A stretch of 64,000 nt of DNA, taken from NCBI RefSeq assembly GCF_026151205.1, contig NC_087072.1, positions 2,437,375 through 2,501,374 on the forward strand. The letters are read 5' to 3'. Below, in pieces: positions 39,801 to 42,800 of this stretch (the stretch's first letter is position 1; each line of letters opens with the position of its first letter). Origin of the DNA: Bolinopsis microptera. Taxonomy: Eukaryota > Ctenophora > Tentaculata > Lobata > Bolinopsidae. Both the position numbers and the translations under genes were made by a program. A model generated the notes under the pieces. That model was not told where the DNA came from. It did no database searches and saw only the letters and a list, made by a program, of their open reading frames with translations.

Positions 39801-42800
39801 CACCCGGCCAATTAACTCAATTAACCGTTCTCCAGCTAATACAGTCAGGCGGCACCAGAACTTGCTGCAATTTTCTACAGTTGAACTGACGCCGCACCCA
39901 GCTCTTAAGTCAGCTCTTCACAGGGTCTAGTGATAAGCGCTCCCATATGGCTCTCAGTTAACTTTGTTTCGTTTTTGTTTGTTTTTGTAGTTGTGGTTTA
40001 TTTGAGGTTTACTTGTTTGACACAAGACGTGAAGGGGAACTTGTTTGATACAAGGGAGGTTTATTATGAAGTGGATAACACCAGTCTCCAGAAGACGCTA
40101 CAAAAAAGTCACACCAGTGTTCCCATTACGGTACAGAACCTTGGAATTAGCCTACAGTCCAACAACTTGTTTAAGCTTTCAACCAAAGAATAAATTCTAA
40201 TCCTCAACCAAATAGTTCTAACACTCCAAATTTTAAAATTCTGTGATTGAAACCAGCCTCTTAAATGAGAACGCTCTTATTAACGGAGAAGCCGCGCACT
40301 GCACTCTCATGACTCGAGCTCTTTGTCCCATGTACCCAACACACTCTTACCTCACCAGGACGGCACTGTCAAGAGCGAGTCTGGACGACCTGCCGACTCC
40401 GGTTTTGCGTCGTTTTTCACGGAAACGGGAAAAGGGAAATATGTCCCACGTGCGATTTTCCTGGATCTTGAACCAACTGTCATCGGTAATTAAGTTTAAC
40501 ATTTTAAGATTATTTGTTTTTTCCAGGACGGAACCATCAAACCGGACGCGATCGCACGAAAGGATGAGAGTTTCTCCACGTTCTTCGCGGAGACAGGGAA
40601 AGGGAAGCACGTACCACGTGCCATATTCCTGGACTTAGAACCAACTGTTATTGGTAGGGTGTTTATTAGGGAGGTTATTATTACCTCCCTAGTCTTTATC
40701 AAGCCTACACTTTCCGGGTATTTCCAGATATCTTCCCAGTGCGAGCAGTTCACTCAGACCGGACCCGATATTCAGTTCTCGGACATTTCAACTTCGGACG
40801 TTTCACCTCCCAAATACTTTATAATGGCAGGGGTGAAATGTCAAGGTGTGAAATGTGTGGTCCCCGAACTGAGGAATCTGTATAGTATTATTAATCCTGA
40901 GCGGCAATCCGTAAGATTACCGATCCAATACTGTACAGCTTGACATAACCACGGAGTCCCAGTGTTCAGCTCGCACTGGGTCCTAGAAGAGCACTGTCTC
41001 AAGTGCAGAGGGAACATTTAGCAAGTAATGACAACCGGTGACATTTCAGACGAAGTGCGAACAGGGGAGTATCGCTCTCTTTTCCATCCAGAGCAGATGA
41101 TCAGCGGCAAGGAGGATGCTGCTAACAACTACGCCCGAGGATTCTACACGGTCGGCAAGGAGGTTATCGAGCAGGTCATGGACAGAGTCAGGAAACTGGT
41201 GAGTTTTTCAACTTTTTCAGAAAATTAAATTCCCAGACCACCTAGCCATGACATGTGACCTGCACTATAATTTAGCGGAATACAGAAAAGAGACTTGAAG
41301 GGGATGCCATAGAAACTTCCACAAGTTTTGTACAAAACAAGGTCGAATCAAACTTTAAATTCCATGGTGACAGCTAGAGCTGCACATAGCGCCTCGTTCA
41401 GCCAATGAGAAGCCTTAGACCGGGTCACGTGTCAGTATTTCTAGCACCGTTCAATCAGCGAGCTTACGGAGCTTGACAGGCTGATGAAACGCTGCCTCGC
41501 CGCTCAGCCCACTACAAATACAGCAGCACATTTAATCTACACACCGTATTTTCGCTTGCTCTCTGATACTGAACTTAAAGAATTTTTGTCTAGCTTTCGG
41601 TATTTCCGGCCAAATTTGAACGAACTATTCAACTATTTAGCAACCCTAAACCTCATTTCAGGCTGACCAATGCACAGGTCTGCAAGGATTCCTGATCTTC
41701 CACTCGTTCGGTGGAGGTACCGGATCTGGGTTCACATCCCTGCTGGCTGAGAGACTGTCTGTGGACTATGGGAAGAAGAGCAAACTTCAATTCTCCGTCT
41801 ACCCAGCTCCCACAGTAGGTGGCATTGTCTTATTGAGCGTGGTGTAGTGTGGTGTAGTGTGGTGTAGTGTGGTGTAGTGTGGTGTAGTGTGGTGTAGTGT
41901 GGGTGTAGTGTAGTGTAGTGTAGTGTAAGTGTAGTGTAGTGTAGTGTATGTAGTGTGGTGTATGTGTGGTGTAGTGTGGTGTAGTGTGGTGTAGTGTGGT
42001 GAAGTGTGGTGTAGTGTAGTGTAGTGTAGTGTAGTGTAGTGTAGTGTAGTGTAGTGTTAGTGTAGTGTAGTGTAGTTGTAGTGTAGTGTAGTGTAGTGTA
42101 GTGTAGTGTAGTGTAGTGTAGTGTAGTGTAGTGCAGTGCAGTGCAGTGTAGTGCAGTGCAGTGTAGTGCAGTGCAGTGCAGTGCAGTGCAGTGCAGTGCA
42201 GTGCAGTGCAGTGTAAAACAGTATGGTGTGGTGTGAAATACACAAATGGTGTGGGGTTATAGTAGGTGTGGTGTAAAATAGTATGGTGTGGTGTAAAACA
42301 GTATGGTGTGGTGTAAAACAGTATGGTGTGGTGTAAAACAGTATGGTGTGTGTGAATCAGTGTGTGTGAACATGGGTGTAAAGTATGTGTGTGTAAATAG
42401 TAGGGTGGAATGTAGGTTGGTGAAACGTATGGTGTTGAACATTTTTGGGTAACTGGTTGGTAATGTAGGGTGTAAATGTTGTGTGGTGTAAAATTGTGGG
42501 AAAGTGTGGGTGTAATGATGGTGGTAACTGGTGTGGTGTAAAAGTATGTGGTAATATAGGTGTGTAAAGTATGTGTGGTAACTTGGGTGTAACGATGCGT
42601 GTGAATAGTAGTTGTGTGCGTCGAAGCTTTTATACTAGTATCTTAAGCACACTTATCACTTCTTATGATCGTATTTACCATTACTGTACTGTTTAAAGCA
42701 TTTAGCTATTTAGCTAGTAATTCCTTCAATAGCTGTTGATCATCGCTAGCTTTTACGTGTGATTGTCGCTAATTGTAGCTGAGAAGCCCCTGCAACTGTC

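Follow-up and report, generated by a model that had tools for sequence, protein, structure and literature searches.

The window analysed here is a stretch of 64,000 nucleotides of Bolinopsis microptera DNA, the plus strand of which carries, between approximately 36813 and 45138, one alpha-tubulin gene with ten exon positions, the third of which is filled twice (Table 1). All introns of the gene model are GT-AG. When the translation was aligned with solved sequences using HMMER, with an X placed at a frame break in exon 6, 172 distinct solved sequences were matched at E 0.001; the best 60 of these are all named tubulin alpha, and the top match scored 886 bits over residues 1-445. The candidate exon 1 has a parallel in a paralogue from the same genome (L034), in which an ATG followed by gtaag likewise lies 5' of exon 2. 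The start of exon 2 together with its acceptor (17 nt, 38559-38575) is present as an exact copy 116 nt upstream (38443-38459), and an 11-nt tandem array separates the two acceptor copies, as would be seen had the array expanded between them.

Table 1. Features of the alpha-tubulin gene, in window coordinates
Feature	Position	Strand	Basis
Candidate exon 1 coding end, ATG then GTAAGT	36813..36815	+	Only ATGGT[AG][AG]G plus-strand match in 15001-38563
Alpha-tubulin exon 2, residues 2-32	38564..38656	+	Translation, splice sites, alignment to solved alpha-tubulins
Exon 3A, residues 33-74, 127 nt	40359..40485	+	Translation, splice sites, BLASTN; 34/42 residues as P0092
3A-3B gap, 41 nt, GT...AG, one yTnAy branch-point-like site (A at 40499)	40486..40526	+	
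Exon 3B, residues 33-74, 127 nt	40527..40653	+	Translation, splice sites, BLASTN
Hairpin directly after the 3B donor, weak candidate for a regulatory element	40667..40691	+	Inverted repeat, fold
Exon 4	41050..41198	+	Translation and splice sites
Exon 5	41662..41814	+	Gene model
Exon 6, one-base frame break near 43712	43676..43842	+	Translation and splice sites
Exon 7	44000..44182	+	Gene model
Exon 8	44339..44517	+	Gene model
Exon 9	44650..44813	+	Gene model
Exon 10, including stop codon	45000..45138	+	Gene model

Elsewhere in the window, a copine gene on the minus strand (approximately 46792-47702 and 48926-49931) has three C-terminal exons duplicated in tandem, the first two being 82% and 85% identical between the copies and the third having been matched by eye. 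No copine C2 domain or earlier part was found by Pfam on the minus strand of 46.5-58.5 kb at E 0.001, a search that short exons could escape, and the duplication may represent either alternative sets of terminal exons or a partial duplicate. An inverted 1.6-kb duplicate (86% identical) is located at 50267-51846 and 60589-62104, with an open single-exon protein kinase frame in each copy (319 and 331 aa), and a Type I hammerhead ribozyme is present at 63885-63931 (35.9 bits, the gathering score being 34).

The two versions of exon 3, here designated 3A and 3B, had been described in the first-pass annotation as neighbouring 127-nt exons matching in length and phase, the second halves near-identical and the loops different, and re-examination returned the same picture with exactly the same coordinates. 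Each comprises residues 33-74 and the first base of codon 75, and both have intact splice sites. In-frame comparison revealed identity at 28 of 42 residues, with 22 of 24 residues matching in the segment from 51 to 74, as opposed to 6 of 18 between 33 and 50. BLASTN within the window paired 3A with 3B at E 2.9e-13, and a third copy of exon 3 sought in the same manner was not found. Synonymous and replacement differences were calculated with the authors' own Nei-Gojobori script, giving an overall pS of 0.77, which is saturated, and a pN of 0.22. Residues 51-74 are almost frozen (pN 0.055, pS 0.74), and residues 33-50, with a pN of 0.45 and a pS of 0.80, form a half that has, by this measure, diverged at the protein level. 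Since synonymous sites are saturated and replacement sites are not, the duplication appears to be old, with coding constraint retained on both copies (pN well below pS), and by these comparisons 3A and 3B are true paralogues that have both long been maintained by selection.

The consequences of the possible splicing outcomes were then derived from the gene model. Joining exon 2 to exon 4 through 3A, or through 3B, preserves the reading frame. Inclusion of both exons breaks the frame, as had been proposed earlier, with a stop arising within 3B; skipping of both leads to a stop in exon 4, and retention of the gap between them leads to a stop inside the gap, such that transcripts with both exons or with neither would be non-productive. 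The gap starts with GTAATT and finishes with a pyrimidine tract and AG. The only yTnAy motif found upstream of 3B is the predicted branch point, the A of which lies at a distance of 14 nt from the 3A donor, with 28 nt separating it from 3B. The additional proposal that the gap is too short for normal spliceosome assembly agrees with the introns of this genome, the 41 nt comparing with a minimum of 86 nt, more than twice its length, among 56 other introns of this genome, which come from tubulin and copine genes only and are partly related by descent, and hence are not 56 independent draws. Forty-three of these were inferred in other alpha-tubulin genes (shortest 86 nt, median 161 nt, GT-AG placement possible in each) from the alignment offsets separating adjacent matches (16 to 2999 nt retained), with L027, which repeats L026, and L040 outside the count; the others are the four copine introns in the window (124, 136, 260 and 361 nt) and the nine other introns of the alpha-tubulin gene (132 to 1861 nt, the first depending on the candidate start). 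The steric limits applied to the gap are mammalian values: efficient splicing reportedly requires approximately 50 nt between donor and branch point, with 35 nt abolishing assembly (PMC6692369), and under 50 is the steric criterion adopted in a study of mutually exclusive exons in humans (PMC5740500). The donors of 3A and 3B have low scores (1.44 and 1.35 against a donor consensus, the other eight donors ranging from 0.6 to 6.63), which would be compatible with alternative use without proving it.

RNA structure around the exon pair was examined also. The 61-nt segment at 40654-40714, immediately 3' of 3B, folds strongly (z -4.4; none of 200 shuffles was equally stable), and 46 of 3197 stretches in the window fold as well as this one. 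The idea that the hairpin masks the 3B donor was rejected, the predicted unpaired fraction at this donor (0.26-0.29) being close to the 0.27 of the donor of constitutive exon 5 and above the values for exons 2 and 4 (0.11-0.19). With pairing that is not specific to 3B, the hairpin is unconvincing as a regulatory element and serves as a weak lead only. The possibility of pairings that compete around the gap was likewise rejected: the 41-nt gap alone folds at 0 kcal/mol, and the segment from 40440 to 40560 is ordinary (z -1.1).

Many alpha-tubulin genes are present in this genome, and the exon-3 segment was surveyed in 22 distinct 5' parts from 21 stretches (L020-L040, with L027 repeating the genes of L026). 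A place on contig C10 that resembles L040 (6225833-6230249) and several fragments of 3' parts lie outside this set, and permissive extra matches in L022 (E 0.006) and L031 (E 0.036), which are short or poor, were excluded from the count. No second exon-3 segment was found in any of the 22 other 5' parts, the window gene, as positive control, having returned both 3A and 3B. These paralogues belong to the same family as the window gene but differ from it in having one exon-3 segment each, which in L028 and L037 is interrupted by an intron. Exon 2 is continuous with the exon-3 segment in 21 of the 22 5' parts, exon 2 of L039 not having been found, such that the intron before residue 33 seems particular to the window gene. 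Introns after the start codon and after residue 74 are shared with L034. At this last locus (2206-6924 of L034, C3:8570000-8579900, minus strand), one 5' part with exons 2 and 3 is followed by two tandem exon 4-10 bodies that have a stop each; no intervening 5' part was found, and the arrangement possibly reflects an alternative choice of 3' body or a partial tandem duplicate.

As assembled, the reading frame of the alpha-tubulin gene in the window is not open throughout. The first 13 codons of exon 6 are in one frame and those that follow are in another, a one-base break that was absent from the first-pass annotation, and the allele in this form would not yield a full-length tubulin. It could be, then, that the gene has been recently inactivated, as a pseudogene or null allele whose exon pair is genuine and was formerly in use, and the presence of many other alpha-tubulin genes in the genome is in keeping with such a loss. 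However, no further lesions were seen in exons 2 to 10, the introns retain their GT-AG ends throughout, and a near-orthologous environmental sequence, P0092, has no frame break at the same site. Additionally, a scrambled tandem repeat grading into indel-rich sequence lies at 42360-42600, 1.1 kb upstream of the break, with TRF rows containing up to 24% indels, which points to poor local consensus quality and hence to the break being a likely assembly error. On balance, inactivation of the gene is considered unlikely. In either case, whether the break is an assembly error or marks a dead allele, the age of the exon pair and the constraint upon it indicate that it functioned over a long period.

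The environmental relative P0092 is 96.0% identical to the window gene over residues 75-452, and has an uninterrupted frame of 451 aa. Its contig measures at most 1586 nt and, given that introns spread the window gene over 8 kb, is probably a spliced transcript; no relative was found in the viral contigs searched with P0092. Its exon-3 segment is of the 3A type, 34 of 42 residues being as in 3A and 27 of 42 as in 3B, and comparison with this genome gives 77% for the stretch with 3A and 58% for the stretch with 3B. P0092 is the only near-orthologous coding sequence covering exon 3 among the matches listed, and no close relative of the 3B type was found among the best 120 matches, observations that would suit a situation in which 3A alone is used, 3B being silent or in decay. 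The sequences nearest to 3B, besides fused or repeated proteins, among the matches listed are P0099 and P0103 (31/42 residues each), which, with body identities of 90.6% and 91.3% versus 96.0% for P0092, look like other genes or species. However, the lack of a 3B-type close relative argues weakly against the use of 3B, because the relatives database is clustered at 90% and full-length isoforms with 3A or 3B, being approximately 97% identical, could share one cluster; the P0092 entry itself represents 11 sequences. Moreover, the frame of 3B is open, its two splice sites are in place and its second half is near-frozen even though silent sites are saturated, a state that a long-silent copy would not keep. 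Nor is 3B any odder than 3A, since with a canonical exon-3 query 3B aligned over its full length (65%) and 3A from query residue 14 onward only (70%). Exclusive use of 3A is therefore regarded as very unlikely. Two further environmental sequences, P0195 and P0197 (93% and 92% identical over residues 75-452), both have their start within exon 3, at DLEPTV or adjacent to it, and may be either cut contigs or products of aberrant exon-3 splicing.

The early stops that result from both wrong outcomes could also be taken to mean that the pair acts as a dosage switch, in which double inclusion or skipping deliberately feeds nonsense-mediated decay and the difference between isoforms is secondary. This appears highly improbable, given that early stops are also a passive result of 127-nt exons, that the loop halves have strongly diverged in protein with the other half fixed, and that the short gap disfavours double inclusion. 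That the second exon is an artefact of collapsed or misjoined alleles or paralogues, in repeat-rich surroundings that are hard to assemble, is regarded as extremely improbable, since 3A and 3B differ at most silent sites, far beyond allelic difference, neither type occurs in any of the 22 other 5' parts examined, and the 295-nt 3A-3B stretch matched only itself in a search of the 264.65-Mb assembly, a search that scores best candidates only and that showed neither another haplotype contig nor an additional copy of the pair.

The equal length and phase of the two exons, their homology, the old constraint on both, the frame errors associated with the wrong combinations and the short gap make mutually exclusive splicing, as originally predicted, the best explanation for the exon pair, and it is judged probable from these features that one transcript takes either 3A or 3B. 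In the proposed mechanism, binding of U1 to the 3A donor would prevent U2 from simultaneously binding the 3B branch-point region approximately 14 nt away; use of the 3A donor would then join 3A to exon 4 and leave 3B out. Conversely, if the 3B acceptor and pyrimidine tract were bound first, the 3A donor would be blocked and exon 2 would be spliced to 3B. Mis-spliced mRNAs containing both exons, neither exon or the retained gap would be cleared as nonsense transcripts.

The predicted 3A and 3B proteins differ at 14 positions (36, 38-44, 46, 47, 49, 50, 53 and 60). They had been expected to differ only in the part of tubulin that faces the lumen of the microtubule; 12 of the 14 changes fall at 36-50 in the luminal loop region, and the other two are at 53 and at 60, the latter (61 in the usual numbering) being a Tyr/His change near the lateral contact. 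The variable segment covers the K40 place and corresponds to the H1-S2 loop. In the HMMER alignment 3B spans the K40 loop of solved alpha-tubulins and lacks one residue there, K40 being the position that faces the alignment gap; 3A is of the same length as 3B. The sole lysine of 3A before residue 57 is K37, and the loop of 3B has K37 and K44, such that lysine 40 is present in neither. Of the 22 paralogue 5' parts, 17 have, by reading, a lysine at the K40 place, which is absent from L031, L036, L038, L039 and L040. The K40 loop of ciliary doublets takes an ordered form at contacts with microtubule inner proteins and is situated near the lateral interface (PMC11006419). Given these contacts, and given that the differences are centred on the K40 loop, the choice between 3A and 3B would most likely tune luminal partners or lateral packing, leaving the core and the C-terminal tail alike. 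Two tubulins, distinct chiefly in the luminal loop, could probably be made from a single alpha-tubulin gene. A more tentative possibility, and one about which doubt prevails, is that the gene encodes a specialised alpha-tubulin without K40, for which cell types choose the luminal loop by splicing without changing gene. Were this the case, splicing would write part of the tubulin code, selecting sets of inner proteins or modes of lateral packing.

Diversity among tubulins is normally attributed to gene families and chemical modification. The first-pass annotation knew of no described alpha-tubulin with an exon arrangement of this kind, and a literature search of titles and the starts of abstracts likewise showed no tubulin case among the papers listed; the luminal loop of alpha-tubulin thereby appears to be a new target of mutually exclusive exons within the literature so searched. 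A pair of isoforms alike except for the luminal loop would provide a clean tool for the study of luminal protein binding, lateral contacts and protofilament number, and the gene illustrates how an intron limited to one paralogue can turn a small structural module into an exchangeable one.

Mutually exclusive exons that arise by tandem duplication are themselves well known, and the mechanism proposed here is of a known kind. In SNAP25 exon 5, U2AF1 exon 3/Ab, insect Mhc and Dscam, adjacent homologous exons also provide alternate versions of one protein segment; the present case differs from these in that the target is an alpha-tubulin and that use of the two exons is predicted. With respect to mechanism, the alpha-tropomyosin type is a mutually exclusive pair enforced by the distance between donor and branch point. 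As in that type and in exons 4a and 4b of OGDH, the donor and branch point of the window gene are predicted to lie too near each other to be served by one spliceosome. The effect in OGDH comes from a distant branch point near the donor, whereas in the window gene the whole gap is 41 nt and the mechanism is a predicted one.
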